A stretch of DNA of 39,726 bases from positions 1-39,726 of the IMG/VR virus record IMGVR_UViG_3300032241_002195. The stretch is one strand, 5' to 3'. Under the pieces are notes generated by a model that was not told the origin of the DNA, did not search any database, and worked only from the letters and a program-made list of their open reading frames with translations. This document shows positions 1 to 24,042 of this stretch, piece after piece. The translations under genes were made by a program, and so were the position numbers. The DNA is from a virus. Position 1 is the first letter of the stretch; each line of letters starts with the position of its first letter.

Positions 1-95
1 AGATGAAGCCTCTGGTACGACGTAGTCTAAGACTACGAAGTGATGGTTCTACATCTAAATTTGATGTATGTACTGATTGTGATCCTTCGCTATAA
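1..95 (+). CDS. 3' end of an upstream gene (partial), zinc-ribbon-like tail
   Basis: One frame (codons from base 3) stays open from the window edge to the TAA at 93-95, giving about 30 C-terminal residues. The end reads FDVCTDCDPSL, a CxxC pair like the many other zinc-ribbon ends in this window. The TAA overlaps the ATG of the next gene (TAATG), the junction style used throughout the region, which supports this as a real gene end. The rest of the gene lies outside the window, so no function can be given. Confidence 0.6.
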   Translation, partial: MKPLVRRSLRLRSDGSTSKFDVCTDCDPSL

Positions 96-505
96 TGAAC
101 TGGAACCTTAGATATAGTAAAGAAGCTAGCGTAGCTGATTTTATTAATAAACAACGTACTAAGGGCATATCTAAAGAGTTCCAGTCATTGGCGGATCTAG
201 ATACTAGAAATACTCTCTCCCATGCTATGGGTCATCATTTAAAGCAATGTGAACACCACAAAGAGCTTAGTGAATTTTATACTAATGCTGGTGAACATGG
301 CATTGCATCTGCTCACGTATTTGCACACGACCTGCACGCTCGTGCCCATGACGCTAATAGACTAGCACTAATGCTACACGATCCTGGTGCTCCAGTAGAA
401 GCAAAACTCGATGCTGTTGAACACGCTAAAAATTTAACAGAAATAGCTGACCATTATAGCAAAGAAGGTTCTAATGATACATGGGATCTTGATGAGGATG
501 AATAG
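95..505 (+). CDS. hypothetical His-rich helical protein
   Basis: This 136-residue protein is not recognised. It looks mostly alpha-helical and is rich in histidine (for example HAMGHHLKQCEHHKEL around residues 43-58 and HVFAHDLHARAHD around 74-86), ending in an acidic tail DLDEDE. Such clustered histidines could bind metal, but no known site is evident. The start overlaps the stop of the upstream gene by one base, and no strong Shine-Dalgarno is seen, so translation is probably coupled. It is the last gene before a 121-base gap and the oxygenase operon. Confidence 0.65.
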   Translation: MNWNLRYSKEASVADFINKQRTKGISKEFQSLADLDTRNTLSHAMGHHLKQCEHHKELSEFYTNAGEHGIASAHVFAHDLHARAHDANRLALMLHDPGAPVEAKLDAVEHAKNLTEIADHYSKEGSNDTWDLDEDE

Positions 506-626: not shown

Positions 627-1301
627 ATGGAATTATTTAATTACGACAAAATCAAATCACACCCTAATTATCTACAAGTTGAAGAGAATATATGGGTGAT
701 AAAGAATCTTATCTCAGATGAGACATGCGACCTGCTTGTCAGCTTTGCTGAGTCTGTCCCAGAGGAACAATGGTGGGAGAGAAACAGAAGAGAGTGGTGG
801 CATGGTAAGTTCTTATATACCGTTGACAACGAAGAGATCAATGAGAAGAACAAAGAGATAAAAGCGGCAATAGCTACGCTATTTACAGACGATTGGTTTC
901 TGAGTGATCCTGGCTCCATCCACAGGATACAAAAGGGTCAAGGGATGTTTGAACACTCCGATAACCCTACAGAGGGTATGGGCAAGAACAATTTCGTTCA
1001 GCTAGCCTTTACTATTTATCTAAGTGATTTTGAAGGTGGAGAGATCTATTACCCTAAGATCCTAAATCCAACACCACTACAGTATAAAGCATCAAAGGGT
1101 GACGTATTGATTCACCCAGGCGTGGGAAGATACGAACACGGAGTTAGACCAGTAACAGGCGATAAGGTTCGCTATGTAACAACAACCTTTGCGTACGATC
1201 CTAAAGTAAAAGAACTAATAGACGTGGGCGTAGTATTCCAAGATGTAGAGTCTGGTCAACCAATGTTAAACGACCTTACCGTAAGCGACTGCATCGAATA
1301 A
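627..1301 (+). CDS. 2OG-Fe(II) oxygenase, prolyl 4-hydroxylase type (1 of 10)
   Basis: This is a 224-residue protein of the Fe(II)/2-oxoglutarate dioxygenase superfamily (P4Hc-like), which couples oxidative decarboxylation of 2-oxoglutarate to hydroxylation of a substrate. The facial triad is visible as FEHSD (H110, D112) and YEHGV (H171). The 2OG-binding basic residue is R182 in VRY. Between them are the family strands LSDFEGGEIYYP and KGDVLIHPG. The N-terminal 100 residues are variable and probably set substrate choice. It opens a tightly spaced operon; the next gene starts 5 bases after its stop. The substrate is unknown: protein, nucleic acid and small-molecule hydroxylation are all possible for this fold. 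Confidence 0.88.
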   Translation: MELFNYDKIKSHPNYLQVEENIWVIKNLISDETCDLLVSFAESVPEEQWWERNRREWWHGKFLYTVDNEEINEKNKEIKAAIATLFTDDWFLSDPGSIHRIQKGQGMFEHSDNPTEGMGKNNFVQLAFTIYLSDFEGGEIYYPKILNPTPLQYKASKGDVLIHPGVGRYEHGVRPVTGDKVRYVTTTFAYDPKVKELIDVGVVFQDVESGQPMLNDLTVSDCIE

Positions 1302-1306
1302 CATAT

Positions 1307-1882
1307 ATGAAACAACCATTAATAGTAAAAACGCTATTCGATATTGAATTCTATAAAGAACTAGAGAATGAATTACGTTCAAAAGTTATTAGCCATGGAG
1401 ATAGTAGTATCTTGCCAGGTCGTTGTATTATAAATACTAACCAAAGTTCTTTATTAAAAACTGCGCATGACAAAACAATAGACATAGCGAAAAAACTTTT
1501 TGAAATTCCTGACTTATTGCCAAGCTACGCGCTGTTTGCCCATTATGAGACTATAGGAGATGTAGTACCATACCTTAGGAAGCATAAGGACACCAATGCC
1601 TGCACCTACATAATAGATATGTGTCTATATCAGTCAGAACCTTGGGACATATATATTGAAGGTACACCTTATACTCTCCACCCTAATCAAGCATTAGCCT
1701 TCTATGGAGAAGACCAAGAGCATTGGCGTGGTATATTCCCCGACCCTTCTTTTGGGTTTGTTGGCATGGTTTTCTTTTGCTTTGTTAAAAGTGACCATTG
1801 GTTCTATGCCAAAGGTAAAGAATATATTAAAGTTATAAATGGAGATATGACAGAAGAAGAATGGGTTGCGAGTCATCAATGA
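1307..1882 (+). CDS. divergent 2OG-Fe(II) oxygenase-like protein
   Basis: This 191-residue protein is more distant than its neighbours but shows a beta-helix oxygenase pattern: RKHKDTNACTY with H93 and D95, the strand segment PWDIYIEGTPYTLHPNQALA, and a distal EHWRG with H139. From memory it resembles a bacterial family with an HRD...PWPIY...EHWRE pattern that is grouped with 2OG oxygenases. The 2OG-binding basic residue is not obvious after the distal histidine, although R141 is close. It overlaps the next gene (ATGA, 1879-1882). It could be a different subtype of Fe(II) enzyme, or a non-catalytic partner. Confidence 0.7.
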   Translation: MKQPLIVKTLFDIEFYKELENELRSKVISHGDSSILPGRCIINTNQSSLLKTAHDKTIDIAKKLFEIPDLLPSYALFAHYETIGDVVPYLRKHKDTNACTYIIDMCLYQSEPWDIYIEGTPYTLHPNQALAFYGEDQEHWRGIFPDPSFGFVGMVFFCFVKSDHWFYAKGKEYIKVINGDMTEEEWVASHQ

Positions 1883-2451
1883 TATCAATAAACCCTAACT
1901 TTTTAACACCAGAAGAAATAAGCACTATTTTAAACTATGTTAAGAATGAATCTCAGAAACATTGGAGTATAGATGAAAATAATCAAAGACGAGTACTCAA
2001 TTTAAATTATTATAAATCGCTTGAACCAAAAGACAAGTTGATCTTGGAAATGATTATAAAGATTAGGATTCGTATTGAGCAACACATAAAACAAACTTGT
2101 GGACTTTCTGTACCAATCTATGCAGAATGTGCTAGTGTAATACGTTGGCCTGAGGGTTATGAACAAGAACCTCACGCAGATAGTGAACAGAATAATCCTG
2201 ACGATGGTGAACATTCATACCCACACCGTTTTTATGCAGCTGTTTGTTATCTGAATGATGACTACGAAGGTGGAGACCTTTATTTCCCACAACATGGTCT
2301 TGAATTAAAACCAGCGCCAGGGGTTATGATTCACTTCCCAGGAACCCGTGAATACCTGCATGGAGTTCACCCTGTGACCAATGGAGTTAGATATGCCATT
2401 ACAGCTTTCTATACCAAAGATATAAATAAAGCCGATGGATTACCAGCATGA
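1879..2451 (+). CDS. 2OG-Fe(II) oxygenase, prolyl 4-hydroxylase type
   Basis: The ATG at 1879 overlaps the TGA of the previous gene and is chosen over an in-frame ATG at 1861, giving 190 residues starting MISINPNFLTPEE. The iron and cosubstrate ligands are clear: EPHAD (H99, D101), YLHGV (H161) and R171 in VRY. The signature YLNDDYEGGDLYFPQHG is followed by KPAPGVMIHFPG. It is close in sequence to the product of 3211-3891, and the two look like diverged paralogues. Fold assignment is very sure; the substrate is unknown. Confidence 0.9.
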   Translation: MISINPNFLTPEEISTILNYVKNESQKHWSIDENNQRRVLNLNYYKSLEPKDKLILEMIIKIRIRIEQHIKQTCGLSVPIYAECASVIRWPEGYEQEPHADSEQNNPDDGEHSYPHRFYAAVCYLNDDYEGGDLYFPQHGLELKPAPGVMIHFPGTREYLHGVHPVTNGVRYAITAFYTKDINKADGLPA

Positions 2452-2504
2452 AAACAATAAAGATTATTGAATGGCCATATTAAACCACAAAAAGAAAAAT
2501 AATA

Positions 2505-3209
2505 ATGATAGAAAATTTTATTGCTTATAGAAATTACAATGGCTTTGCCGATATAGCTCCATTGAATGTAAAAAGAGAATGGATGGATGATACGGTAAAC
2601 AGCCATGCCTATAAATGTTTTCCAGTTAGCCTTGCCAATGGTTTAGGTTGGGGTATATTCTTCCCAGAAGATATTACTTTTATTTGGGATGGCATAACTG
2701 ATACGACATCAGATCATGTTAAAATTTTAGCTGGTGAAAAGTATGTTCATGCACAAAGAGGTAATGCAACTATAAGTTTCAATACTGGTCTTATTTTTAA
2801 AACACCAGACGATTACACTCTCCTAACTATGCCAGTCCCTAACCAACATATAGCTGGTGTTTCTCCGTTTACAACATTAATGAGTACTTCTTTTTACAAT
2901 AGCGATTTGCCATGCGCCTGGAGAATAACAGAATCTAATAAAGAAATAACTATTAAAGCAGGCACTCCAGTCATAGCAGTGTTTCCAATATCTTTAACTA
3001 ATTTACAGAATACAGAATTGCATATGAAACACCGTAATGATATACCAATTTCATATAGTCAAGATTATATAGGTTATCACGAAGTAATAGGTCAAATTAA
3101 TCAATCGGGTAGATGGTCAGATTTTTATAGAGATGCTGTAAACCATGAAGGTAAAACTGTTGGTGAACACGAAGTTAAATTAATAAGACTAAAAGTTATG
3201 GAAGGATAA
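2505..3209 (+). CDS. DUF6065 family protein
   Basis: This 234-residue protein matches my memory of the DUF6065 family, whose function is unknown. The diagnostic features are the N-terminal MIENFIAYR, REWMDDT near residue 25, PVSLANGLGWGIFFP near 41-55, FNTGLIFKTPDDYTLL near 92-107, and a C-terminal HRNDIP segment. It looks mostly beta-stranded. It lies inside the oxygenase operon, two bases before the next oxygenase gene, so it probably acts in the same process, perhaps as a binding or scaffold protein or an enzyme of unknown chemistry. No catalytic residues can be named. Confidence 0.7.
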   Translation: MIENFIAYRNYNGFADIAPLNVKREWMDDTVNSHAYKCFPVSLANGLGWGIFFPEDITFIWDGITDTTSDHVKILAGEKYVHAQRGNATISFNTGLIFKTPDDYTLLTMPVPNQHIAGVSPFTTLMSTSFYNSDLPCAWRITESNKEITIKAGTPVIAVFPISLTNLQNTELHMKHRNDIPISYSQDYIGYHEVIGQINQSGRWSDFYRDAVNHEGKTVGEHEVKLIRLKVMEG

Positions 3210-3210
3210 C

Positions 3211-3891
3211 ATGGAAGAACAGATAATTGTAAACAAAGATGAGGATCAGAGAGAATTTGTATCGCTTATACCTTCTGGTTATTTTGGTGACTCAGCAGAT
3301 AACATTGTAGAAGTTTCAGACTTTCTTACACCAGAAGAACAAGAAACACTTAGAAACTTTGCTATCAATAATACGGTTTGGGATATTACTGAAACTAAAA
3401 CTAATGAGAATGGAACAGTTACTTACAATGCAGATTTTTGGGCAGATAGGGTAGCAACGTATACTTCTTTACAAAGAGTAGATCCAACAATTTTGCCTTT
3501 GATTGAAGACATGCAAAGAAGACTTAAAGTTAAAGTAGATGCACACTTCAATGTCAATGTTAGAGCAACAGGGCCTGCAGTTGTTAAATGGCCTGTAGGA
3601 ACTGAACAAACTCCACATGCTGATAAAGAACTGCATGAAGGACCAGATGCCGGTAAGCCAAACGCTTTCCCATATTATGACATAGCATCAATCTTTTATT
3701 TTAATGATGACTACGAAGGTGGAGAATTATATTTTGTTAACCAGGGTGTACGTATAAAACCAAAAGCAGGTTCTGCATGGTTTTTCCCAGGTGACATGAA
3801 TTATTTGCATGGAGTCTCAACAGTGACTTCTGGACTTAGATTTACTTGCCCATTCTTTTGGACAGTGGAAGAAAATTTTAATACTAAATAG
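3211..3891 (+). CDS. 2OG-Fe(II) oxygenase, prolyl 4-hydroxylase type
   Basis: This 226-residue oxygenase has an acidic N-terminal extension of about 30 residues before the shared SDFLTPEEQETL helix. Metal ligands are TPHAD (H136, D138) and YLHGV (H200), with R210 in LRF as the likely 2-oxoglutarate anchor. The conserved strands read YFNDDYEGGELYF and KPKAGSAWFFPG. DNA coding for NDDYEGGE is almost identical to that in genes 1879-2451 and 3899-4555, which points to recent duplication or gene conversion. Substrate unknown. Confidence 0.9.
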   Translation: MEEQIIVNKDEDQREFVSLIPSGYFGDSADNIVEVSDFLTPEEQETLRNFAINNTVWDITETKTNENGTVTYNADFWADRVATYTSLQRVDPTILPLIEDMQRRLKVKVDAHFNVNVRATGPAVVKWPVGTEQTPHADKELHEGPDAGKPNAFPYYDIASIFYFNDDYEGGELYFVNQGVRIKPKAGSAWFFPGDMNYLHGVSTVTSGLRFTCPFFWTVEENFNTK

Positions 3892-3898
3892 GAACTAT

Positions 3899-4555
3899 AT
3901 GGATAAGAAAATACTACACGACAAAATTTACTATTATGAAAATGTAATGCCAAATTTTGACGATTTCAATAAGGCTTTAGAACATTATAATAATTGGGAA
4001 GAGTGGACTGCATGCGGTGATGTACCTTATCTTTATGGAGAACAAAAATCAATAATCCCGAATGAGAGCGATGAACACAAAACATACGTTTATAATGCGA
4101 TTAAAGATGCTTTTTATAATGTTAGTAAAGACTATGCAGAATCTTTAGGTGACTACGATGAACCAAAATTATTTCCAACATATAAAATAAAGAAATACAT
4201 GACTGGAGCATCTATGGGTGCTCATTACGATCAATCATTCGGTGACACAAGTTTAAGATACTCTTTTGTTATGTATCTAAATGATGACTACGAAGGTGGA
4301 GAGATTTCTTTTAAAATTGTAAATTATTTTGAACCTAGTGAAAGACCTGACGTAGATCCAGATTATAATGAAGCTATAAGGTTAAAACAAATTGATGTAG
4401 GAATTAAACCAAAAGCAAACAGTATTGTTATATTTCCATCCTCTGCTCCATATTTTCATACTGCTCATATTATTAAATCTAATGTTAAATATATGATTCC
4501 AGGTCATTGGATACACAACAATATGGAATTTAGTTTAAATGAAATGATGTCATGA
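3899..4555 (+). CDS. 2OG-Fe(II) oxygenase, tandem duplicate copy A
   Basis: This 218-residue oxygenase is one of two tandem copies. Ligands are AHYD (H109, D111) and the distal histidine in YFHTAH (H187 or H190). The 2OG anchor is lysine (K197 in VKY), as in collagen prolyl 4-hydroxylases, where the upstream paralogues have arginine. An insert of about 25 residues (around 140-165) lies between the EGGEISF strand and KPKAN. Its first 16 residues are nearly the same as in the next gene, at the DNA level too, so the pair arose by recent tandem duplication. Confidence 0.88.
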   Translation: MDKKILHDKIYYYENVMPNFDDFNKALEHYNNWEEWTACGDVPYLYGEQKSIIPNESDEHKTYVYNAIKDAFYNVSKDYAESLGDYDEPKLFPTYKIKKYMTGASMGAHYDQSFGDTSLRYSFVMYLNDDYEGGEISFKIVNYFEPSERPDVDPDYNEAIRLKQIDVGIKPKANSIVIFPSSAPYFHTAHIIKSNVKYMIPGHWIHNNMEFSLNEMMS

Positions 4556-4558
4556 GGC

Positions 4559-5218
4559 ATGGACAAAACAATATTACACGACAAAATTTACTATTACGAG
4601 AATGTAATAGAAGATTTTGACAATTTCAATAAAGTTTTAAAAAAATTAAATGATGATTGGATAGTGTGGCATTCTTCTGACAATGAAGATCATATTTATG
4701 GAGAACATAAATCATTAGATTTAAAGATAATTGGTAAAGCAAAAGGTCAATTAAAAGAAGACATGCTATACGTTTATAATTTAATTATAAATGCTTTTTT
4801 AAATGTTGCCAAAGACTATGCGGAATCACAAGGCGATTACGAAGAACCAAAATTATTTAAATTGCTTAATATAAAAAAATATAACGCTGGAACATATATG
4901 GGTTCTCATTTTGATCAATTACAAGGCGATATGAGTTTGAAATATTCTTTTGTTATGTATTTAAACGATGATTATGAAGGCGGAGAACTTTCATTTAACA
5001 TTATAGATTATGATGAAGCTTTTGACGAAAGGCCTCGCACAGATCCAGATTATGATAAAGCTTTGAAATCAAAGTTATTTGACATAGGTTTTAAACCAAA
5101 GGCTAATAGTACAGTTATATTTCCAGCATCTGCCCCATACTTCCATACTGCACATATTGTTAAAACTGGTTTTAAATATATGATTACATCTCACTGGATA
5201 CATGATGATCATCAATAA
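4559..5218 (+). CDS. 2OG-Fe(II) oxygenase, tandem duplicate copy B
   Basis: This 219-residue protein is the second copy of the tandem pair with gene 3899-4555: both start MDK-ILHDKIYYYENV and share MYLNDDYEGGE, KPKANS and PYFHTAHI. Ligands are SHFD (H117, D119), the distal histidine in FHTAH and lysine in FKY as 2OG anchor. It differs from copy A mainly in residues 30-65, where substrate-facing N-terminal segments usually lie, so the copies may have split in specificity. All catalytic residues are kept, so it is not a decaying copy. Confidence 0.88.
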   Translation: MDKTILHDKIYYYENVIEDFDNFNKVLKKLNDDWIVWHSSDNEDHIYGEHKSLDLKIIGKAKGQLKEDMLYVYNLIINAFLNVAKDYAESQGDYEEPKLFKLLNIKKYNAGTYMGSHFDQLQGDMSLKYSFVMYLNDDYEGGELSFNIIDYDEAFDERPRTDPDYDKALKSKLFDIGFKPKANSTVIFPASAPYFHTAHIVKTGFKYMITSHWIHDDHQ

Positions 5219-5246
5219 AATATACAATAATATTTATGAGAAAGAT

Positions 5247-5936
5247 ATGGGTTCAACTTCAATGCAAAAAACAGCTATAGTTACAGGAGCCAGCAAAGGC
5301 GTAGGCCGAGCTACGGTCAAACTCTTGGCTAACAATGGATATAAAGTTATCGCTGCATCAAGAAATTTAGATGCTATGAAAGATCTAGAGTCTGATAATG
5401 TTGAAATAAATAAACTAGACGTAACAGAACCAGAACAGATCAAATCGTTTTTTGAAAAATACAAAGAAACTACTATAGATTTATTAGTTCATAATGCTGG
5501 TGGTGGCTCTGCACCCAAGCAAATAATACATGAAACTATGGAAGATTTTAGAAGAGCTTATGATATAAATGTAACTGGTCCAATGTATATATCACAGTTG
5601 TTTGTTACTTCAATGCAAAAATCTGATTCTCCAACAATTATATTTATTTCTTCTTTGTGTGGACAAATTCCATTTTTTGGATCAGGCAATTATTCTAATG
5701 CAAAAAGAGGCCAGATGGGTTTAGTTGATACCATGAGGTTAGAGTTCCCAGCGTATGGTATTAAAATAACAGAAATTTGCCCAGGAACTATTGATACTCA
5801 AACAGAAAAGAAAGAGAATGCATTGACTGCAGAAGACATGGCAGAAGCTATCCGATGGGTGGGTTCATTACCAGGACATGTAAATATAAACCATGTAGAA
5901 ATAGCACATATAAATAGTAGCAAGTACGTGATATAA
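5247..5936 (+). CDS. short-chain dehydrogenase/reductase (SDR)
   Basis: An NAD(P)-dependent oxidoreductase of the classical SDR type. From the ATG at 5247 (229 residues) it shows the cofactor motif TGASKGVG at residues 13-20, the NAGG motif near 83-86, an active-site serine in FISSLCG and the catalytic YSNAK (Y149, K153). An in-frame ATG at 5202 would overlap the previous gene and add a tail not typical of SDRs, so 5247 is preferred; 5262 is also possible. Inside an oxygenase operon it could oxidise a newly made hydroxyl group to a ketone or reduce a carbonyl. The substrate is unknown. Confidence 0.9.
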   Translation: MGSTSMQKTAIVTGASKGVGRATVKLLANNGYKVIAASRNLDAMKDLESDNVEINKLDVTEPEQIKSFFEKYKETTIDLLVHNAGGGSAPKQIIHETMEDFRRAYDINVTGPMYISQLFVTSMQKSDSPTIIFISSLCGQIPFFGSGNYSNAKRGQMGLVDTMRLEFPAYGIKITEICPGTIDTQTEKKENALTAEDMAEAIRWVGSLPGHVNINHVEIAHINSSKYVI

Positions 5937-5937
5937 T

Positions 5938-6660
5938 ATGAATAAAATAGATTATAAAAATGACATTGTTGTTTTTGAAGAATTCTTAAGTAAAGAAGAA
6001 TGCAATGCAATTATTAAATATTGGGATCATTCAGAAAAAAATGGCAAACTTAAATGGAATAGAATTGGATTCTATGGATCATCTGCAGCCAACTTGCCAG
6101 TAGGCGATGATATGGTTGATTTTGGATTACCTAAAGATCTTGTTGAATCTTTGAGTTCTAGAATGAAAGAAGCTGCGGAGCTTGCTCGTGGTAGTGGTCT
6201 AAAGCCAATTGGTTTCCCACATGCACAAATATGGGCTACAGGAGGTTTTACAAACCCTCATTCAGATAATAGTACAGATGGTAAGTACAATGAATTCGAA
6301 AGAAGCAAATGGGCAACGTTTATATATTTGAATGATAATTTTGATGGTGGAGAATTATTCTTTCCTGATCATGGTGTTTCAATTAAACCAAAGACTGGTC
6401 TATTAGCAGCATTTGATGGTGGACATGATAACCAACATGGTATATCATTGATTACGTCCGGAGAAAGATTTACTATTGGTCAATTTTGGGATTATGAAGA
6501 ATCAGAATATACTCAAGAAAAAATAGATGAATGGGCTGAGAGCCTTAAAACCGTTAGAGCACAACAAGCTGTACAATTAAAAGGTTGGGAAGAAGCAGAA
6601 TCCAAGGGAGAAAAGGTTCTGCCAGATCCCAACCTAGAATATAAAGGAGAACCGCGATGA
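5938..6660 (+). CDS. 2OG-Fe(II) oxygenase with a charged C-terminal tail
   Basis: This 240-residue oxygenase starts one base after the SDR stop. Ligands are NPHSD (H108, D110) and NQHGI (H167), with R177 in ERF as the likely 2OG anchor. The strand signature is YLNDNFDGGELFFPDHG, then KPKTG. Unlike its neighbours it has a tail of about 55 residues after the catalytic core, charged and probably helical, ending NLEYKGEPR, which could mediate partner binding. Its end overlaps the start of the next gene by four bases (ATGA). Confidence 0.9.
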   Translation: MNKIDYKNDIVVFEEFLSKEECNAIIKYWDHSEKNGKLKWNRIGFYGSSAANLPVGDDMVDFGLPKDLVESLSSRMKEAAELARGSGLKPIGFPHAQIWATGGFTNPHSDNSTDGKYNEFERSKWATFIYLNDNFDGGELFFPDHGVSIKPKTGLLAAFDGGHDNQHGISLITSGERFTIGQFWDYEESEYTQEKIDEWAESLKTVRAQQAVQLKGWEEAESKGEKVLPDPNLEYKGEPR

Positions 6661-7331
6661 ATATGCAAGAAGGAATGGTTTTTGAAAAAACCTGGAGTTC
6701 TAAAGAAGATCTTGGTAATTGTATTACACTTTATAGAGATGTAATCAAACCAGAGTGGAATATTATAAAAAGGTTAGAAAAAGTATTGGATGGGAATAGC
6801 CATTATAATTGGCAACCAGCCTATGTTGGATACCAACAAAGAATGCCAGAATACCGAGACTGTATCGATTTTAAATTTAAGAAAAGTGATATAGAAGGAG
6901 ACCTGAGCCAAGAGTCAAAGGAACTACAGCAGATCTGGCAAGAATGCTATGATGCACAAAAAGCAGCAGTCGATGATTATTCAAGAACAAACAATATACA
7001 CAATTTAAGGTATTGGGAAGCTTTTAACTTTGTTCGTTATGGTGAAGGCCAACACTTCATGGAGCACCATGACCACGGTTTCTCGTACAACTGTACAGTA
7101 TCTCTTGTAGCGTATCTAAATGACGAATATGAGGGCGGAGAGATCTACTTTAGACTCCAGGAACTAAACATAAAGCCAAAGGCTGGAGATTTAATTGTAT
7201 TCCCATCTACGTTTGCTTATCCACACCGAGCCATGCCAGTTAAATCAGGAGTCAAATACTCTTTAGTAACCATGTTGGATTATAGTGATAAATATCACAA
7301 GCCAGAGTTCTACCAGGAGACTGGTTCCTAA
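6657..7331 (+). CDS. 2OG-Fe(II) oxygenase, last gene of the operon
   Basis: This 224-residue oxygenase has ligands in FMEHHDHG (H137, D139), a distal histidine in AYPHRAM, and lysine in VKY as 2OG anchor. The strand signature is YLNDEYEGGEIYF followed by KPKAGDLIVFPS. The N-terminal 115 residues, with several aromatic stretches (HYNWQPAYVGYQQ), resemble none of the other copies, so it is probably not a recent duplicate. It closes the uninterrupted operon; a 71-base leader separates it from the next gene. Confidence 0.9.
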   Translation: MNMQEGMVFEKTWSSKEDLGNCITLYRDVIKPEWNIIKRLEKVLDGNSHYNWQPAYVGYQQRMPEYRDCIDFKFKKSDIEGDLSQESKELQQIWQECYDAQKAAVDDYSRTNNIHNLRYWEAFNFVRYGEGQHFMEHHDHGFSYNCTVSLVAYLNDEYEGGEIYFRLQELNIKPKAGDLIVFPSTFAYPHRAMPVKSGVKYSLVTMLDYSDKYHKPEFYQETGS

Positions 7332-7375
7332 AACAGTGTAATTCTATAGGTATTTTGCAATAGTTCATGTAAGAG
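7329..7375 (+). promoter_or_regulatory. conserved leader element (copy 1), possible promoter
   Basis: The bases after this oxygenase stop align without gaps to those after the stop at 31277-31279. Shared blocks are TAAAACA, TGTAATTC, ATA, ATAGT and ATGTA at identical spacing over about 45 bases. The downstream genes are unrelated in sequence, so the conservation points to a DNA or RNA signal such as a phage promoter. The ATAGT block resembles a -10 element. No classical -35 is present. Confidence 0.4.
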
Positions 7376-7402
7376 TCAAATGCACTATCAAGGACTACTA
7401 TT

Positions 7403-7834
7403 ATGACATTCAAATACTCAAATGAAGACGAAAACATGGATTTAAATATCGATGCCAAACTAGAAGGCCTTGATAAACTTGCAGAACGAGTAATGTTGAT
7501 GCAAAAATTACATAATTACATGAAAGAAACTGCAGGGTTTGCAAAAGCTCACCATGACTTTACGCAAAAAGCACTTGGTCATCATCAAAAGATCACTACA
7601 GAGCTGGAAAGACAAAAAGCTCTGGGACCAGATATGGTCGATTGCAATTGCCCAAAATGTCAAGCTCACAACCCTCAGCCTCCAGTTTCTTCATGGGTTG
7701 GCGGAATAGTTAGTGGCCCTAAAGACGACTGGATAAACAACCACGATGCAGAATGTTCAACGTGTGGAGAACAACACCCATTAGGTTCTCTAAGCATGAA
7801 TGGTGAATGCCTTAACTGCGCAAAACGGCATTAA
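7403..7834 (+). CDS. hypothetical protein with C-terminal zinc ribbon
   Basis: This 143-residue protein has a helical, His-rich N-terminal half (LHNYMKETAGFAKAHHDF) and a C-terminal half with CNCPKC near residue 92, CSTCG near 124 and CLNC near 137, a probable zinc ribbon. The start has an upstream AAGGA. Its stop codon lies within the second copy of the 20-bp repeat. Its build resembles the many other helix-plus-zinc-ribbon proteins of this phage and not the oxygenases. Function unknown. Confidence 0.75.
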   Translation: MTFKYSNEDENMDLNIDAKLEGLDKLAERVMLMQKLHNYMKETAGFAKAHHDFTQKALGHHQKITTELERQKALGPDMVDCNCPKCQAHNPQPPVSSWVGGIVSGPKDDWINNHDAECSTCGEQHPLGSLSMNGECLNCAKRH

Positions 7835-7848
7835 AAGATTTAGAAATT
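7829..7848 (+). repeat. 20-bp direct repeat, right copy
   Basis: Exact copy of the 521-540 sequence. It starts within the last codons of gene 7403-7834 (CAT TAA are its first six bases) and runs into the leader of the next gene. With the left copy it brackets about 7.3 kb containing all the clustered oxygenases. Confidence 0.7.
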
Positions 7849-7894
7849 AGGATTACTTTTATAAGTAAACTCCACAATAGCAAGGTACGTAAGA

Positions 7895-9307
7895 ATGACA
7901 AAATTTAATAGCAGAGCTGCTGCCAAAAAGAAAAGGCAGAACAACGATCAATTAAGCATTGTTCATCACCAAGTAGGAAACGATACTTACAAGTTCCATG
8001 AAGAAGACCCTAACGCTGGGCACATGGATCGTGAAGCAGCGCTTATGTCAAAACACTACCTTAAAGGTTGTGGAAATAAGTGCAAACCAGGTTGCACAGG
8101 AAGTTACAGAGATCAAGGTCTTAAAAGACCAGATCCAGTAGCAGTAGAATTATTTGGTCTTGCTCCAGATGACCCAAAGAACCTCGATGGTGAATGGCAT
8201 CACGACCCTAGCTTAACTAAAATGGCTAGACTACGCACCCTTACAGATATTGCTGACATTCCTGTTACAGTGAATGATTTTGAAGGTGAAGAAAAAGTTG
8301 CTAAAAAAAGAAAATTTTCTGATTTTCTATTATACCCTCAAATAAAAATTACTAAAGGTAAAGGTAAATTTGATAGAGGCATCTCTGCTGGTCAATATAT
8401 CGATGAATCTGGCAATAAACGATTCGGTGCACCTATGGAAAAAATTGGACTAATCCATGGTTATGCACAAGCTGGTTACAATCGATTAATTGAATCAGGC
8501 AGTACAAAACTCGCTGATTATTTTAAAGTAGCAAAAGTTGCTTCGGCACTTTCTGATGGAACAACTATTTCAGCAAAAGATTCACGACCTAGTGAGAATC
8601 GTAAATTTCGTCGGCTTTCAAAAAATGGTGTTCCAGCAAATGCTATGACTGAATTGAATCATGTTGTAAGGCATATTGCTAGTCGTATTAGCCCAGACTT
8701 TGTACACCATGAAGATCCGGATGTTAAAGAAGCTTTAAATCAATCACATCGTGAAAATCATAATGCAGCAAAAACTGCAGAATTTGCAATGTGTTTTTGT
8801 CCACACTGTGTATTAGACCAGTCATCGACCCCAACGAATACAATATTTGATATTCAAGATCGTACTCGTGCAGCAAAACACCCTGCAACGTCAGACTCTT
8901 TCTTTGCAGGATCACCTCAGTTTCATCACCCAGATCTTGGAGAAGGTCTAGAAGGAAGAACTTCCGATCTTGGTAGAACTGGTAAGCAATCTCCTCATAA
9001 TGGTTTTTGGATTAGAGATGCAATTAAGTATATAACTGCTGCTGTCCGTGGTCGTAAAAACGAAGAGAATCCATTCCACCCAGGACCTTCTGCTCTGCTC
9101 CAAGATGCTCGACTCCATGCTATTGATCCATCAGAATTTGAAAATGGTGGTGGTGTTTCACCATTCGTACGGAATTACGACTACGAAGGACCTACCGAAG
9201 AACCTGAAAGCACACCAAAGCCAATTAAGAGAAGAAGACCAGAAGTCATTTCTGAAGAACTTACTAAGGTTAAAGAAAAAATTCTCAATCCTAAGGAAGA
9301 AAATTAA
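7895..9307 (+). CDS. hypothetical, probable virion-associated protein
   Basis: This 470-residue protein is not recognised. It starts with a basic segment (FNSRAAAKKKRQNN), has a Cys cluster GCGNKCKPGCTG near residues 59-70 and CFCPHC near 298-303, and ends in a lysine-rich tail. A KVAKVAS segment near residue 210 matches a short motif seen in many proteins of this window. The basic N-terminus and Cys pairs recall the zinc-knuckle proteins at 24709-30882, so it may belong to the same virion-linked set. A different-frame ORF at 9048-9323 on the same strand is a shadow of this gene. Confidence 0.7.
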   Translation: MTKFNSRAAAKKKRQNNDQLSIVHHQVGNDTYKFHEEDPNAGHMDREAALMSKHYLKGCGNKCKPGCTGSYRDQGLKRPDPVAVELFGLAPDDPKNLDGEWHHDPSLTKMARLRTLTDIADIPVTVNDFEGEEKVAKKRKFSDFLLYPQIKITKGKGKFDRGISAGQYIDESGNKRFGAPMEKIGLIHGYAQAGYNRLIESGSTKLADYFKVAKVASALSDGTTISAKDSRPSENRKFRRLSKNGVPANAMTELNHVVRHIASRISPDFVHHEDPDVKEALNQSHRENHNAAKTAEFAMCFCPHCVLDQSSTPTNTIFDIQDRTRAAKHPATSDSFFAGSPQFHHPDLGEGLEGRTSDLGRTGKQSPHNGFWIRDAIKYITAAVRGRKNEENPFHPGPSALLQDARLHAIDPSEFENGGGVSPFVRNYDYEGPTEEPESTPKPIKRRRPEVISEELTKVKEKILNPKEEN

Positions 9308-9334
9308 TGTTAATAAAAATTAATTGGATAAGCC

Positions 9335-9365
9335 TTGACACGTACTCCTGTCAATCTCCTATAGT
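9335..9365 (+). promoter_or_regulatory. candidate sigma70-like promoter with inverted repeat
   Basis: TTGACA at 9335-9340 and TATAGT at 9360-9365 form a host-type promoter with a long 19-base spacer. The -35 hexamer is also one arm of a perfect 6-bp inverted repeat with TGTCAA at 9349-9354, which could be a repressor site overlapping the promoter. A good Shine-Dalgarno (AAGGAAA, 9373-9379) and the ATG at 9382 follow. Confidence 0.45.
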
Positions 9366-9381
9366 ATAACTTAAGGAAATC

Positions 9382-9807
9382 ATGAATAATCCTTGTCAAA
9401 ATAGTTGCAATATTAATGCTTGTATTTGCGAAAATAATACAAAAAATGATGAAAAACAGCTAAAAATAGCTGAATTTAAGGAAAAAACCGACAAAATACG
9501 TCATTTTTTATCAAAAAACGTTAAAAATACGTCATTTTTACACAAAAAAGACAAAAAACCATTAAAAGCTAAGAACTACCATATTACCATAGTTGATGCT
9601 AGCAATGAAGATGGTTACTACATGGAATACTCCAAGGACATCAACCTTGTTGAGTTTGCAATGATCCTTACCAATATTTTTGGCATAGATATGCATGTTG
9701 GTTACGACGAAGATAATGATGAGTCACTTCAGGAAAATGTTATTTTCTTTAAAAATTTAGATGAAGTCATTGATTTCATTCAGAATAGAAAAAAGGAAGA
9801 AGAATGA
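9382..9807 (+). CDS. hypothetical small protein
   Basis: This 141-residue protein is not recognised. The first 18 residues contain four cysteines (NPCQNSCNINACICE), then a lysine-rich linker of about 40 residues, then a compact alpha/beta domain from about residue 58 (YHITIVDASNEDGYYMEYS) ending in EVIDFIQNRKKEEE. The linker DNA contains a 16-bp direct repeat. It has its own candidate promoter and strong RBS, and overlaps the following oxygenase gene by four bases, so it may regulate or precede it in one transcript. Confidence 0.7.
   Translation: MNNPCQNSCNINACICENNTKNDEKQLKIAEFKEKTDKIRHFLSKNVKNTSFLHKKDKKPLKAKNYHITIVDASNEDGYYMEYSKDINLVEFAMILTNIFGIDMHVGYDEDNDESLQENVIFFKNLDEVIDFIQNRKKEEE
9493..9539 (+). 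repeat. pair of 16-bp direct repeats inside a gene
   Basis: AAAATACGTCATTTTT occurs at 9493-9508 and again at 9524-9539, start to start 31 bases (about three helical turns). Each unit is also a near-palindrome around ACGT. The two copies are read in different frames (one as RHF, the other as TSF), so protein repetition does not explain the conservation. An operator or protein-binding pair is possible. Confidence 0.45.
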
Positions 9808-10580
9808 CAAATAATCGTGAGTTCACATCATTTGAACTAATGCCAAATGTAAGAATTTACCAAGGGTTGCTACCAGATGCAGATGAATTATATAAAACTA
9901 TAAAAGAATCTGAATTTAATAATGAAGGTAAATACTTTTTTGATAAATGGACACAATGGGGTCTATTTGGGACTTATGCAAACATAAATTGGGAAAAATA
10001 TTTTTCTGATGAACTTGACGCAAAAACAAAAGAAGAAAAATATGTATACGATAGTGTGCTTGAGGCAAATGAAATTGCTACAAAACATTATAAAGAAGAA
10101 TACAAGATTGATTATCCAGAAACAGCATTTCTTGATAAACCAAAGTTTCATAAATACGATATAGGTGTTGACAACATGGATAATGATTTAACCATGCAAT
10201 ATCACACAGATTTTATTATCTCTGAACGTGATCATCCGGGTCCCAAATTCTTATTGACATGCACTACATATATAAATGACGATTATGAGGGCGGAGAAAT
10301 TGAATTTTATGTAGGGGATGACTTTTATCCATATAAACCAAAAGCTGGAGACATTTTAGTATTTCCATCTAATGAACCATATTACCATGGTGTAAAAACT
10401 ATATTAAAGACCAATAAGTTTTTTACTACTAACTTTGTACGTTATACATATGATGGTCATCCAGACTGGCTTGAGAATCAAAGGAAGTACGGTGCTCATC
10501 ATTGGTCAAAAATGGAAATTGAAAGAGTTGACAAAGAGAACCCAACTAATATGAGATACGCAAATAGAGAATCAAAATGA
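9804..10580 (+). CDS. 2OG-Fe(II) oxygenase, detached copy
   Basis: This 258-residue oxygenase lies 2.5 kb beyond the main cluster. Ligands are QYHTD (H134, D136) and YYHGV (H195); a lysine in NKFFTTNF is the probable 2OG anchor. The signature YINDDYEGGEIEF and KPKAGDILVFPS place it with the 3899/4559/6657 lysine-type group. It has a longer N-terminal half and a basic C-terminal tail (ENQRKYGAHHWSK). Its stop overlaps the start of the HNH gene. Confidence 0.9.
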   Translation: MTNNREFTSFELMPNVRIYQGLLPDADELYKTIKESEFNNEGKYFFDKWTQWGLFGTYANINWEKYFSDELDAKTKEEKYVYDSVLEANEIATKHYKEEYKIDYPETAFLDKPKFHKYDIGVDNMDNDLTMQYHTDFIISERDHPGPKFLLTCTTYINDDYEGGEIEFYVGDDFYPYKPKAGDILVFPSNEPYYHGVKTILKTNKFFTTNFVRYTYDGHPDWLENQRKYGAHHWSKMEIERVDKENPTNMRYANRESK

Positions 10581-10999
10581 CCATAGAGGAGCACGATGCA
10601 AATACTACTCACCACTATACTATTCACTATCCTGCTCATCCTGAGCGCACCTCCGATCCACATTACAAAGACTTTGATTCTTACAGAAGGCGAACGAAAA
10701 GCACTGCTCAGTGCAGCGTTGGTTTGCATCGTAATGATTTTAGTGAATGTTCTTTAGATAAACCGTTAGAACTTCACCATAGCCACATCGAATTTTCTCT
10801 TCAAAATGGTGTAGATCTCAAGTGGCTTGAAGTTGACTACCCTGGCGTCTCGGACCCAGATTCTGTTGGTGCATGGGTGGAATCAGCAAAGAATCTAGTA
10901 TGGTTATGCGAATTTCACCATAGAGGACATGGGGGTATTCATACCGCCGCCGCTGCTGATTACGAAGCAGAGAAATACGTCCGAGGATTAATCAAATGA
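10577..10999 (+). CDS. HNH endonuclease-like protein
   Basis: This 140-residue protein carries an HNH (beta-beta-alpha metal) core: LELHHSH with H67, H68 and H70, N106 in AKNLVWLC, and H114/H115/H118 in FHHRGHGG. C46, C58 and C111 could hold a structural zinc. HNH nucleases cut DNA in a metal-dependent way and in phages serve in packaging or as homing enzymes. This one is free-standing and resembles, from memory, small HNH proteins of actinobacteriophages. The first 60 residues overlap a second ORF in another frame (10596-10757). A later start cannot be excluded. Confidence 0.75.
   Translation: MTIEEHDANTTHHYTIHYPAHPERTSDPHYKDFDSYRRRTKSTAQCSVGLHRNDFSECSLDKPLELHHSHIEFSLQNGVDLKWLEVDYPGVSDPDSVGAWVESAKNLVWLCEFHHRGHGGIHTAAAADYEAEKYVRGLIK
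10596..10757 (+). CDS. possible overlapping two-helix membrane peptide
   Basis: A 53-codon ORF lies in another frame inside the 5' part of the HNH gene. Its ATG at 10596 is preceded by GAGGAG, a better ribosome site than that of the HNH start itself. The product would have two hydrophobic segments, about residues 3-18 (ILLTTILFTILLILS) and 37-53 (LLSAALVCIVMILVNVL), joined by a short polar hairpin, like small holins or other phage membrane peptides. It may be a chance reading, but ribosome site, size and topology make it worth listing. Confidence 0.35.
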   Translation: MQILLTTILFTILLILSAPPIHITKTLILTEGERKALLSAALVCIVMILVNVL

Positions 11000-12327
11000 A
11001 ATGCACAATTAGCGACTGCAATGCACCGCACCGTACTTTTATACGACTTCCTGGGCAAGACAAGTCTAAACCATTTTGTGGACCACATACTTTAGAGATG
11101 AGAAGCAGATTTAGTCAAACAACCCCTGAATCTGAAACATTAGCTCCAGTAATCGATATAAAGACTAGAGAACGAATTGCTTCTTGGTCACAAAGATATG
11201 CTAATGATGTGGATGCGACTGATGACGGACTTTCTACAATGGCTACTGATCTTAACTCTCATATTTTTAGTTACACTGGTCAATCAGGACAAAGCCCTAC
11301 CGATCGTATGTATAAGGGTATGGGTGGTGCAGACCTAGACAATCAACCACAACTATCTAGTCTACGTAGTAAGTATAATGATTCCTCCCCCGGTTCTATA
11401 GGAAAAGCAGTACAGCAAATAAAACTATTTACTGGCAAAGATTCATATGGTAGTGACATTCGCACTAATAGAGAAAAATTTCCAGAATTTCATGGTTTAA
11501 TGGATCAAGCTAGTCCCATTGCTGGAGGTCTTAGCAGGGGAACAGTTTTAACAGATGTTCGTCATGGAACTTCCGGGTCTCCAATCGATATATCCCAACA
11601 CTATAAAGTTGGAGATAAGATGATCACTAAAGTAACGAGTGCTACTAGTGATCCAAATTTAGCTAAGAGTTGGGTTCTTGATGATAAACAACGTTTTGAT
11701 AAAGCTAAAAACACTGGAGATAATAGCGTTCTAGATACAAAATATAATGGCGCTCGGCATGGTGCTTTTGTAGTTCAACACTTTCCAGCGGGAATAAAAG
11801 GTTTACAGGTAGCACCACTTTCTGCTGTTCCAGAACACAATGAAGTAGTCCCACAGGCTGGTCAAAAACTTAGAGTTTCTAAAGTAACAGGGCCTGATGA
11901 GAGTGGTGTACATCATGTGTACTACGAACACGATACAGAACGAGTTGCTTCTTGGAATGAACGTTATGCTACTACTGTAAGGCCAGACAAATGCAGACTA
12001 TGCGGTCAATCTGATGATGGGACTCGCACCATTGTTAGCAATGGTACTTGCAAAGACACTCAAGAGTGTGCAGAGACCCAAGAAGGCCTTGCTAATAGAA
12101 CACTTACTGTATTAGAACCAGTTAAAAAGCCTAGGAAAAAGCCTATAGTAGATAGGAAAGGTACAGCAGCTTGTACCCATCCAGACTGTTTAGAAGCAGG
12201 TAAAAGATATCCTGCTACAAGTTTATCATGGGACAAGTCACCCATGGGTAACCCAGTTTGTAGAGATCATTGGCGACCTGGAACCACTGATTACAATTCT
12301 TGGAAAGGCGAGTACAAAAGAAGATGA
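10996..12327 (+). CDS. ADP-ribosyltransferase-like protein with zinc fingers at both ends
   Basis: This 443-residue protein has a probable R-S-E class ADP-ribosyltransferase domain, which would move ADP-ribose from NAD to a target. Visible elements are LSRGTVL (R181), KVTSATSDPNLAKSW (TSAT at 214-217, the STS element) and HNEVVPQAGQKLRV (E283, catalytic glutamate candidate; the usual Glu or Gln two residues earlier is H281). The domain is flanked by a repeated segment, RIASWSQRYA at 60-69 and RVASWNERYA at 316-325. Each end of the protein has a CxxxxC...CxxH finger (C3, C8, C28, H31; and a C-terminal CTHPDC...CRDH), and a CRLCG ribbon follows the second repeat. T4 Alt and ModA are precedents for phage ARTs. 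Confidence 0.65.
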   Translation: MKCTISDCNAPHRTFIRLPGQDKSKPFCGPHTLEMRSRFSQTTPESETLAPVIDIKTRERIASWSQRYANDVDATDDGLSTMATDLNSHIFSYTGQSGQSPTDRMYKGMGGADLDNQPQLSSLRSKYNDSSPGSIGKAVQQIKLFTGKDSYGSDIRTNREKFPEFHGLMDQASPIAGGLSRGTVLTDVRHGTSGSPIDISQHYKVGDKMITKVTSATSDPNLAKSWVLDDKQRFDKAKNTGDNSVLDTKYNGARHGAFVVQHFPAGIKGLQVAPLSAVPEHNEVVPQAGQKLRVSKVTGPDESGVHHVYYEHDTERVASWNERYATTVRPDKCRLCGQSDDGTRTIVSNGTCKDTQECAETQEGLANRTLTVLEPVKKPRKKPIVDRKGTAACTHPDCLEAGKRYPATSLSWDKSPMGNPVCRDHWRPGTTDYNSWKGEYKRR

Positions 12328-22038: not shown

Positions 22039-22836
22039 ATGACATTATACAATAACTATGTAGAAAATATCGTGAACCGATTAAAAAAATGTTCCCCAAT
22101 CGATGATTGGTCAATCAACCCATTCGGTCACATTGTTATTGATAATTTTCTTGATGAAGACTTAGTCAATGCTCTTTACGAAGAAGCAATGAAAGTACAA
22201 AAAGATGAAACCAGTTGGAATAAATATAATAATCCATTGGAAAAAAAGTTCTCTCTTAGTAAGTGGGACCAATTACCCAAAAATGTTTATTCATTCCTGC
22301 TTGCTCTTGGAGATGTAGCTGTAGTTGAACAAATAGAACTTTTATCCGGTATCTACGGTATTGTACCTGATGCTGGCTTGCATGGTGGTGGCATCCACAT
22401 GCATAAAAAAGGTGGTAAATTGAACCTACATCAAGACTATAGCATCCATCCAAAACTTGGCCTACAAAGACGACTTAACATAATATTTTATCTAGGTAAA
22501 GAATGGAATAAGTCATGGGGTGGTGGGTTGGAACTTCATGAACATAATCCAGAAAATAACAGACCAAAGTATCTTGTTAAAACAGTAGACTATACATGGA
22601 ATAGAATGATATTGTTTGATACTATTGAAAGCTGGCACGGTTTCCCAGATCCTATTACACCACCTGATGATAAGTACCGTTTATCATTAGCCTACTACTA
22701 TACATCATCACCATTGGAAAAACACTCTGAGAAACAAGCTGTTTTTTATGCACCTAGCAATGAACAGATTGGTGATGCAGAGATTGAAAAACTAATCGAA
22801 TTGAGATCTAATCCAGGATCTGCCAAAAAATTATAG
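22039..22836 (+). CDS. 2OG-Fe(II) oxygenase, Tpa1/proline-hydroxylase-like
   Basis: This 265-residue oxygenase differs from the main cluster. Ligands are LHQDYS (H131, D133) and SWHGF (H200), with R214 in YRLSLAYYY as 2OG anchor. Strands RRLNIIFYLGKEW and WGGGLELHEHN are typical of oxygenases found in glycan and O-antigen loci and of Tpa1-like prolyl hydroxylases. The N-terminus (INPFGHIVIDNFLDEDLV) is also typical. It is followed after ten bases by a methyltransferase and then a glycosyltransferase-like gene, so a glycan or natural-product-like modification is the best guess. Confidence 0.88.
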   Translation: MTLYNNYVENIVNRLKKCSPIDDWSINPFGHIVIDNFLDEDLVNALYEEAMKVQKDETSWNKYNNPLEKKFSLSKWDQLPKNVYSFLLALGDVAVVEQIELLSGIYGIVPDAGLHGGGIHMHKKGGKLNLHQDYSIHPKLGLQRRLNIIFYLGKEWNKSWGGGLELHEHNPENNRPKYLVKTVDYTWNRMILFDTIESWHGFPDPITPPDDKYRLSLAYYYTSSPLEKHSEKQAVFYAPSNEQIGDAEIEKLIELRSNPGSAKKL

Positions 22837-22846
22837 GAGAAATAAA

Positions 22847-23344
22847 ATGACTAAAAGTTTAGATCTTGGTTGCCATAGAAACATTAGGAATACATTTAAC
22901 GCAGATGAAGCATATGGTTATGATATAGTTGATACTGGCGTTGATAATCTTTTTGTATCTGATATTATTCTTGATGGTATACCATGTGAAGATAATTACT
23001 TTGATTATGTAACAGCTTTTGACTTTCTTGAACATATACCACGTACATTGTATATTGATGGGAAAAGGGTGAATCCTTTTATAGATGCAATGAATGAAAT
23101 TTGGAGAGTATTAAAACCAGGTGGAATTTTTTATGCTGTTACTCCTGCTTTCCCAAGCCCGGAGGCATTCCAAGATCCTACTCATGTCAATTTTATAAGT
23201 GACCAAACTTATAAATATTTTACTATTGATTATCATCAACTAGGTAAAGATTATGGATTTGATGGTCTTTTTGAATTATTAGAACAAAAATGGGGAGACC
23301 CATGGTCACACAATCTTGAATGGACAATGAAAGCAATAAAATGA
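22847..23344 (+). CDS. SAM-dependent methyltransferase (class I)
   Basis: This 165-residue protein is a short Rossmann methyltransferase. KSLDLGCHRN near residues 3-12 is motif I (DLGC, without the usual GxGxG), YGYDIVDTG is the acidic motif II region, DYVTAFDFLEHIP near 47-59 is motif IV and VLKPGGIFYAVTP near 89-101 is motif V/VI. A strong ribosome site (AGGAGAA) precedes it. Neighbours suggest it methylates a glycan or a hydroxylated product. Its stop overlaps the next start. Confidence 0.85.
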   Translation: MTKSLDLGCHRNIRNTFNADEAYGYDIVDTGVDNLFVSDIILDGIPCEDNYFDYVTAFDFLEHIPRTLYIDGKRVNPFIDAMNEIWRVLKPGGIFYAVTPAFPSPEAFQDPTHVNFISDQTYKYFTIDYHQLGKDYGFDGLFELLEQKWGDPWSHNLEWTMKAIK

Positions 23345-24042
23345 AATTTTACGTATTCCATACAGATAATATGCCTACTCATGAGTGGGGTGCAAAGATA
23401 ATCGAAGATCAAAAGAAAGTATGCGAACATCTTGGTATAGAAATAGAGTATGTCACTGCTCCTTATGTTGATTTCAAAACCGCTGGTGATGACCATGGTC
23501 GTATCGTTACTGAAGTTATTAGAGATTCAAAAGATGTTGTTTGCTTTTTAGATCTTGATTGTTTACCATATGATATAGAAATACTTCAAGATATTTACAA
23601 TTGGGTAGAAGAAAACAAAAGCTTTGCCGGTAATGCTCAAAACATTTCTCATATACCAGAAACACGTGAGCAAATTTTTGCTGCACCAAGCATGCTTATG
23701 GTCCATAAAGATGCATGGGTTAATTTAGGTTGTCCTGATATGGCTCAAAAGCATCGTGATAGTGATGGACAAGTTTATATTGATGTTGCTCAACAATTGA
23801 CAATGAACGCAAAAGAACAGGGTCTACAGCATGCAACGCTTATGCCACTTGGATGTGATTATGTTCGTTGGCGCACACCAATCACTAATGCTCCTGACTT
23901 TATTTTAGGAGCAGGAACAAAATACCCAGGATCATGGCATTATTTCCAAGGCTCTATCAATGTTGCTGATGATAAAATTTGGGATTTAAGAGTTAGCCAA
24001 ATATTAGATAATCAACCAATAACCCCACATATAATATTTTAA
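23341..24042 (+). CDS. glycosyltransferase-like protein
   Basis: The ATG at 23341 overlaps the methyltransferase stop (ATGA) and is preferred over one at 23320; it gives 233 residues. The fold is GT-A-like: an N-terminal KFYVFHTDN strand, then VVCFLDLDCLPYD near residues 67-79 with a DxD-type motif that binds the nucleotide-sugar metal, and later SMLMVHKDAW and CDYVRWRTP. Donor and acceptor are unknown. With the methyltransferase and oxygenase before it, it may decorate a virion protein or alter host surface glycan. Confidence 0.6.
   Translation: MKFYVFHTDNMPTHEWGAKIIEDQKKVCEHLGIEIEYVTAPYVDFKTAGDDHGRIVTEVIRDSKDVVCFLDLDCLPYDIEILQDIYNWVEENKSFAGNAQNISHIPETREQIFAAPSMLMVHKDAWVNLGCPDMAQKHRDSDGQVYIDVAQQLTMNAKEQGLQHATLMPLGCDYVRWRTPITNAPDFILGAGTKYPGSWHYFQGSINVADDKIWDLRVSQILDNQPITPHIIF

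Follow-up and report, generated by a model that had tools for sequence, protein, structure and literature searches.

The DNA analysed here (the window) is the whole of IMG/VR record IMGVR_UViG_3300032241_002195 (G000; 39.7 kb), and its left part includes an array of genes for 2-oxoglutarate (2OG)/Fe(II) oxygenases, together with a gene for a DUF6065 protein and another for a short-chain dehydrogenase/reductase (SDR). The portal protein (33460-35844) matches phrog_2833 at 1e-159. Its relatives are encoded on 76 IMG/VR contigs, many of them more than 80% identical; the nearest cultured relatives are Mycobacterium, Gordonia and Rhodococcus phages, with 36-40% identity. It can reasonably be inferred from these comparisons that the window is a fragment of an actinophage-like virus with an actinobacterial host. 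Taking into account the source samples of the relatives, we presume a freshwater origin.

The original prediction, made from the letters of the window, listed ten oxygenase-like genes, and all of them were found at their coordinates on a single strand, the third starting at ATG 1861 or 1879 (genes are named here by their first nucleotide; Table 1). Nine (627, 1861, 3211, 3899, 4559, 5938, 6657, 9804 and 22039) score above the gathering cut-off of PF13640 (2OG-FeII_Oxy_3; 27 bits), and a six-frame search agrees. ORF 1307 has no Pfam match; it matches phrog_2954 at 3e-12, and all 12 homologues compared retain its H-x-D and second H. The HxD...H set was seen in all ten genes, and an EGG or DGG strand in eight, gene 22039 having a GGG variant and 1307 none. 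Typing of the genes by their arginine or lysine anchor was also correct, and the anchor is invariant within groups of orthologues (K200 in 6657, R210 in 3211, R177 in 5938, K205 in 9804), as is the iron triad HxD...H in the alignments of groups A-E. Both the SDR (5202) and the DUF6065 protein (2505; 105 bits against a cut-off of 26.6) were recovered by profile. The proposal that 627-7331 form one operon agrees with their shared strand and tight spacing, the two features on which it is based. PHROG families 274, 2297, 2954 and 3531 carry the labels "DNA endonuclease", "DNA endonuclease V" and "ferrochelatase"; because Pfam and structure indicate 2OG oxygenases, these were rejected as mislabels. 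A PADLOC match to a CRISPR-associated 2OG protein (PDLC01653) looks like a generic domain match; no cas gene was noticed among the scanned window genes.

Table 1. Genes of the window bearing on the oxygenase array, and related features of other loci (positions refer to the window unless a locus is named).
Feature	Position	Strand	Basis or remark
Small gene, MNWNxRY... N-terminus	95..505	+	Left edge of insertion
2OG-Fe(II) oxygenase, Arg type (HSD...H...R), accessory	627..1301	+	PF13640, 31.2 bits
Divergent 2OG-oxygenase-like protein, accessory	1307..1882	+	phrog_2954; conserved HxD and second H
2OG oxygenase, Arg type, sister of 3211 group, accessory	1861..2451	+	PF13640, 47.2 bits; tree
DUF6065 protein, module hallmark	2505..3209	+	PF19541, 105 bits
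Core oxygenase group B, Arg type	3211..3891	+	Profile closest to prolyl 3-hydroxylase 1 and bacterial prolyl 4-hydroxylase
Core oxygenase group E, Lys type, tandem copy 1	3899..4555	+	Profile closest to PKHD hydroxylase and PBCV-1 prolyl 4-hydroxylase
Core oxygenase group E, Lys type, tandem copy 2	4559..5218	+	Profile, alignment, tree
SDR oxidoreductase, accessory	5202..5936	+	PF00106, 144 bits
Core oxygenase group C, Arg type	5938..6660	+	Profile matches prolyl 3-hydroxylase 1 (5.7e-11)
Core oxygenase group A, Lys type	6657..7331	+	Predicted structure matches peptidyl-prolyl hydroxylases
Core oxygenase group D, Lys type	9804..10580	+	PF13640, 38.9 bits
Distant 2OG oxygenase, second variable region, outside conserved module	22039..22836	+	PF13640, 48.7 bits
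Methyltransferase and possible glycosyltransferase (DLDC motif) beside 22039	22847..24042	+	Possible partners
Second DUF6065-like family	L107 785-2178; L141 8680-9420; L200 8662-9387; L196 8650-9375
Hint-like stretch after FFPP tract	L158 4585-6066; L175 1720-3318; L196 1362-2771; also L207, L231, L232

That the array is not one recent expansion is borne out by a maximum-likelihood tree, in which the core oxygenases fall into five groups, each forming one side of a branch with support of 97-100/92-99; the sole recent tandem pair is 3899/4559 (about 60% identical). Upon searching the PDB with group profiles, prolyl hydroxylases were obtained at or near the top for all five groups, and PKHD enzymes and the lysyl hydroxylase LH3 appeared as well. 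The 6657 group matched bacterial prolyl 4-hydroxylase (P4H) at 3.6e-6, then PiuC and, weakly, LH3. The 3211 group matched prolyl 3-hydroxylase 1 (P3H1; 1.4e-6) and P4H (2.6e-6), with some spurious designed-protein matches, and the 5938 group matched P3H1, P4H (2.3e-6) and, weakly, EGLN1. The 9804 group gave P3H1 only (0.011), and the 3899/4559 group gave PKHD (1e-4) and PBCV-1 P4H (6e-4). The double-stranded beta-helix was checked on one member, and the outcome agrees with the original prediction: the AlphaFold2 model of 6657 is confident (predicted local distance difference test score, pLDDT, of 91) and its best PDB matches are prolyl hydroxylases. The best 50 matches listed are mostly PPHD, P4H and PHD2, and include Pseudomonas putida PPHD with EF-Tu, Chlamydomonas P4H with (Ser-Pro)5, PHD2 with HIF peptides, PBCV-1 vCPH and human C-P4H-II. 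The TET/JBP DNA oxygenase family (PF12851) was rejected as a candidate, its best score being 18.4 bits against a cut-off of 34.9.

Most close relatives of the window do not carry the oxygenase set, 33 of the 39 searched being devoid of any PF13640 gene, and no known role for the set was found. In G002 and G022, for example, the homologue of 7895 follows about 100 bp after a small gene like 95-505, with nothing in between. The array 627-7331 is an insertion absent from most close relatives. A sister species (G020/G021), about 83% identical in nucleotides over many of the stretches that it shares with the window, has orthologues of 5938 and 6657 (96% identity), 3211 (86%), DUF6065 (80%), 3899/4559 (about 60%) and 1861 (41%); those of 627 and 1307 are missing from the array part covered by the sister records. 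The sister array is read as the same cassette with gene turnover. Past the insertion site, relative G022 carries (10171-12554) two leftward genes whose products look like a MoxR-type AAA ATPase and a VWA protein.

We then considered the distribution of DUF6065 in other phages. A search of IMG/VR gave 240 relatives, and the locus counts that follow cover the best 80. One or more 2OG genes stand beside DUF6065 in all 80 loci, four to eight in most; the few loci with one or two only are short or end close to the match. The recurring order is 6657, DUF6065, often a second DUF6065-like gene, 3211, 9804, 5938 and 3899/4559, with roughly 30-70% identity to the window genes, and full-array loci mostly hold one member per oxygenase group. 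DUF6065 and the five orthologous oxygenases travel together in many phages and are not private to the window phage. The ten oxygenases of the window are not the extreme either, since a 116-kb phage record (G049) has 13 PF13640 matches, some under the curated cut-off. The SDR is present in 14 of the 80 loci, mostly in window-type phages, and is accessory to the module.

DUF6065 itself has no relative in the PDB by sequence and no match in cultured phages, and a literature search on it gave no papers. Its predicted fold (pLDDT 86) has a weak dUTPase likeness (9e-5, TM-score 0.40 by query length). In bacterial genomes it was found at one locus, on a 5.3-kb contig of a Chitinophagaceae metagenome-assembled genome that may itself be phage. 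The second DUF6065-like family ends in ...AGTP...PFKREDW..., has no Pfam match in the two members scanned, and often lies between DUF6065 and the 3211 orthologue; it occurs in 18 DUF6065 loci and in 33 of the FFPP loci described next.

The module is preceded by a gene of the tail region whose product has as its C-terminal part a (F/Y-F-P-P)n or (FFxPPx)n tract (hereafter FFPP); this gene often has fibronectin-III domains and adjoins Mtd_N or other fibre genes. DUF6065 loci other than those of the window type were searched by regular expression where their upstream sequence reached at least 3 kb. An FFPP-type tract was found within 5 kb upstream in 39 of 40, and the 40th (L196) also has a tract, missed by the expression and seen by eye. 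For a reverse search, 120 loci were picked solely by the codon pattern PP[FY]FPP[FY]FPP. Control loci were drawn by a glycine-proline (collagen) repeat pattern, meant also to test a Gly-X-Y link; as that pattern is palindromic, many control hits are probably chance sequence and are used as background only. 2OG genes were present in 84/120 FFPP loci against 7/120 controls, at least three of them in 50/120 against 0/120, and DUF6065 in 59/120 against 1/120. After clustering at 85% identity, 2OG genes remained in 53/84 FFPP and 7/118 control loci (p about 4e-19, the clusters being not fully independent). The tract is in frame in 113 of the 120 loci. Of the 80 loci with both 2OG genes and an in-frame tract, 72 have most of their 2OG genes on the same strand as the tract. 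The nearest 2OG gene lies downstream of the tract in 52 of 53 clusters, at a median of 640 bp.

A collagen-type substrate as a general rule was rejected: a Gly-X-Y run occurs in 1 of the 80 DUF6065 loci, and the linked tract is (F/Y)FPP. Genes for a sulfotransferase, an Asp/Asn-hydroxylase, APS kinase, collagen or a glycosyltransferase are found at some loci, the collagen protein being encoded at L141. In several FFPP proteins the tract is followed by a Hint/intein-like C-terminal stretch (C-x-x-x-DT..., with a ...HN end in L158 and L196; Table 1), a likeness suggesting that the tail protein may cleave itself or become attached. The L158 protein has no Pfam or NCBIfam match.

Within the window's own lineage, the array is on G020/G021 and the FFPP tail gene (IPPPFFPPFFPP...YFPPC tract) on G009/G001. 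As G020/G021 overlap G009/G001 over 25-32 kb, and G009 overlaps G001 over 74 kb, at 99.98-99.99% identity, the four records were treated as one population. In this sister species the two lie far apart, the array being placed to the left of the head genes and the tail region holding the FFPP gene, and therefore neighbourhood alone cannot account for their co-occurrence. The tail locus of G009 also encodes two second-DUF6065-like proteins, a sulfotransferase, an Asp/Asn beta-hydroxylase-like protein, a methyltransferase, a 2OG oxygenase and APS kinase. The tract is present in 4 of the 39 relatives, which are exactly the long records with a tail-region 2OG gene. In G005 and G006, the homologue of the repeat protein and its neighbours are present, but a Cys/Gly/Tyr/Asn-rich tract replaces FFPP. 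Both lack the modification genes seen in G009, including those for the oxygenase, sulfotransferase, Asp/Asn-hydroxylase and APS kinase, and no PF13640 match was obtained anywhere in either record. The substituting tract, in the G006 homologue (L446 4639-6135) as in G005, is long and GCTAYGCTSSGCC-like. The tail contig L214, which is 82-87% identical to G009 over the longest tail-region matches, a divergence in line with that of the window, has the same layout with an FFPP tract, and its sample also yielded window-type array contigs.

Taken together, these results lead us to consider, with a probability of roughly 0.7, that the array makes up one half, the enzymes, of a system by which the phage would modify its own tail protein after translation, through prolyl-hydroxylase-type enzymes acting on the FFPP tract. 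The original prediction of a dedicated modification pathway with DUF6065 is supported and made more specific by the co-travelling orthologues and by their statistical and positional tie to the FFPP tail protein; the SDR is accessory to it. Of the targets then proposed (virion proteins, DNA or surface glycans), the evidence favours a virion protein. In the system that we infer (hydroxylase activity, substrate, residue and ring position, DUF6065 role and phage benefit alike), the five core oxygenases (6657, 3211, 9804, 5938 and 3899/4559) would be peptidyl hydroxylases of the prolyl-hydroxylase type, and their target the long (F/Y-F-P-P)n tract of the tail-fibre or adhesin protein of the same phage, probably its prolines. 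Since the tract has Pro-Pro with Phe/Tyr, and both P4H-like and P3H-like groups exist, stepwise proline hydroxylation is the first guess. The reaction would take place late in infection, before or during tail assembly, and would consume host 2OG, Fe(II) and O2. DUF6065 and its relatives would be regular partners, perhaps non-catalytic, helping to present or hold the substrate. Some phages may add further steps with Asp/Asn beta-hydroxylase-like enzymes, sulfotransferases, APS kinase or a glycosyltransferase, and those with sulfotransferases or glycosyltransferases may decorate the hydroxyls. The finished tract might be a stiff, hydrophilic or adhesive tail element, and the benefit, speculatively, adhesion, stiffness, solubility of a very hydrophobic tract, or receptor choice.

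A bolder version, to which we give somewhat less than even odds, is that widespread freshwater tailed phages carry a full hydroxylation line for an adhesive-like tract. Orthologous enzymes would act on it in turn (e.g., proline 3- and 4-hydroxylation to dihydroxyproline, possibly aromatic hydroxylation), followed in some phages by sulfation or glycosylation, a finishing that would resemble that of collagen or mussel adhesives.

Several known systems offer partial parallels. PBCV-1 vCPH is a virus-encoded peptidyl P4H acting on proline peptides in vitro (PMC7019647); it is a structural match to 6657 (5c5t, 2.5e-9) and a profile match to the 3899/4559 group. It differs in being the single enzyme of an alga virus in whose virions no hydroxyproline was found, whereas the present phages are tailed phages with at least five paralogous groups, DUF6065 and a linked candidate substrate. 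P. putida PPHD, the EF-Tu prolyl hydroxylase, is the top structural match of 6657 (4iw3, 1.7e-10), but is one enzyme and acts on host EF-Tu. In eukaryotic collagen modification, several 2OG hydroxylases (P4H, P3H1 and LH3, all among our matches) likewise act on one repetitive extracellular protein; there, the substrate is Gly-X-Y, whereas the phages have FFPP, small single-domain enzymes and no secretory compartment. The 2OG-Fe(II) oxygenases of cyanophages (PHROG 61) belong to the same superfamily, with up to five per genome in a published gene table (PMC3037559), and EGLN3-like phage 2OG structures have been reported (PMC12774648). The best cultured-phage matches are partial and at most about 46% identical, and DUF6065 is unmatched in cultured phages. 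A search of open-licence papers on tail-fibre hydroxylation and "FFPPFFPP" found no account of a conserved locus that links several hydroxylases to a proline-rich repeat of a phage tail. The enzymes belong to a known superfamily, with a prolyl-hydroxylase-like architecture, in what would be a variation on known systems, of predicted function.

Some points weigh against modification of the tail tract by these enzymes. The evidence is genomic, and covers the genes, their orthology and conserved active sites, the linkage to the repeat protein and the predicted fold of one enzyme. The PF13640 structures in the PDB are skewed to prolyl hydroxylases, and the nearest match is therefore weak evidence on the substrate. 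Five enzymes on one simple repeat would require five reactions, none of which we can name, and PBCV-1 has an active P4H, yet its virions are without detected hydroxyproline (PMC7019647). The control set is higher in GC content than the FFPP set (53% versus 39%) and is not habitat-matched to it. The window record ends ahead of its own tail genes, and L214 is a likely tail counterpart of the window species. Lastly, G001, G009, G017 and G034 are probably one species, so the within-family contrast counts once.

It could also be that one or two enzymes hydroxylate the tract and the others modify Phe/Tyr, Asp/Asn or Lys residues, or else the Hint-like domain or a different fibre protein, for instance a collagen-like neighbour. 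This overlaps with tract hydroxylation as a partial form of it, and would fit the deep divergence of the groups with two anchor types, the collagen protein at L141 and LH3 among the weak matches; with prolyl hydroxylases at or near the top of the PDB matches in all five groups, we regard it as rather unlikely. Another reading, clearly less probable still, is that the oxygenases act on a different target, be it a glycan or lipid of the host surface, a free amino acid or some other virion protein, and that FFPP proximity reflects a shared variable tail or host-interaction region. Variable regions often hold 2OG, sulfotransferase, methyltransferase and glycosyltransferase genes, and the window cassette does not adjoin the tail. 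Nevertheless, array and FFPP gene are found in one phage of the window lineage though far apart, gene order is conserved with the 2OG genes downstream of the tract, and the glycine-proline control loci have few 2OG genes, never three or more.

DNA or nucleotide modification of the TET/JBP or AlkB type seems very improbable. A DNA repair role was proposed for cyanophage 2OG proteins (PMC3037559), the PHROG "DNA endonuclease" labels look like inherited mislabels, and the Tet_JBP and Oxygenase-NA matches are weak and sub-threshold, Tet_JBP standing at 18 bits against 34.9; the structural matches are peptidyl hydroxylases and the tail-protein link is strong. Equally small is the chance that the genes serve to manipulate host 2-oxoglutarate/nitrogen signalling, as also proposed for cyanophages (PMC3037559): 2OG is the co-substrate and the gene copies are many, but bulk use of 2OG needs neither five conserved groups with DUF6065 nor a linked repeat protein.

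Other features were observed along the window. The second variable region (22039-24042), with its 2OG oxygenase, methyltransferase and possible glycosyltransferase, is flanked by tRNA genes (Asn 21958; Gln/Met 24046-24196) and is partly common to the sister species only. A ferritin/Dps-like protein (16919-17416; PF00210, 1e-23) is retained in nearly all compared relatives, and the central part of 10996-12327 looks, by eye, like a putative domain of the ADP-ribosyltransferase type. Short motifs (MNWNxRYA, FNSxxAA, ASWxxRYA) recur at the start, or close to it, in many proteins of the structural region that are otherwise unrelated (95-505, 7895-9307, 10996-12327, 26328-28655 and 28648-30882), and could be a signal for processing or packaging.

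Phage 2OG oxygenases are abundant and their substrates mostly unassigned, and we know of no phage that finishes its tail fibre chemically by hydroxylation. Bacteria and viruses have been stated to lack prolyl hydroxylases for collagen-type hydroxylation (PMC3368898), and no role in virus replication is known for the only viral P4H studied (PMC7019647). The present analysis supplies a conserved multi-enzyme set, a marker DUF and a specific, easily testable candidate substrate. If confirmed, it would account for gene islands labelled "ferrochelatase" or "DNA endonuclease", and would provide a small hydroxylase family with a repeat substrate, of use for materials work. It would also mean that a phage tail protein is hydroxylated post-translationally; by analogy, our results suggest that freshwater bacterial viruses may hydroxylate their own tail fibre in a manner akin to the finishing of animal collagen.

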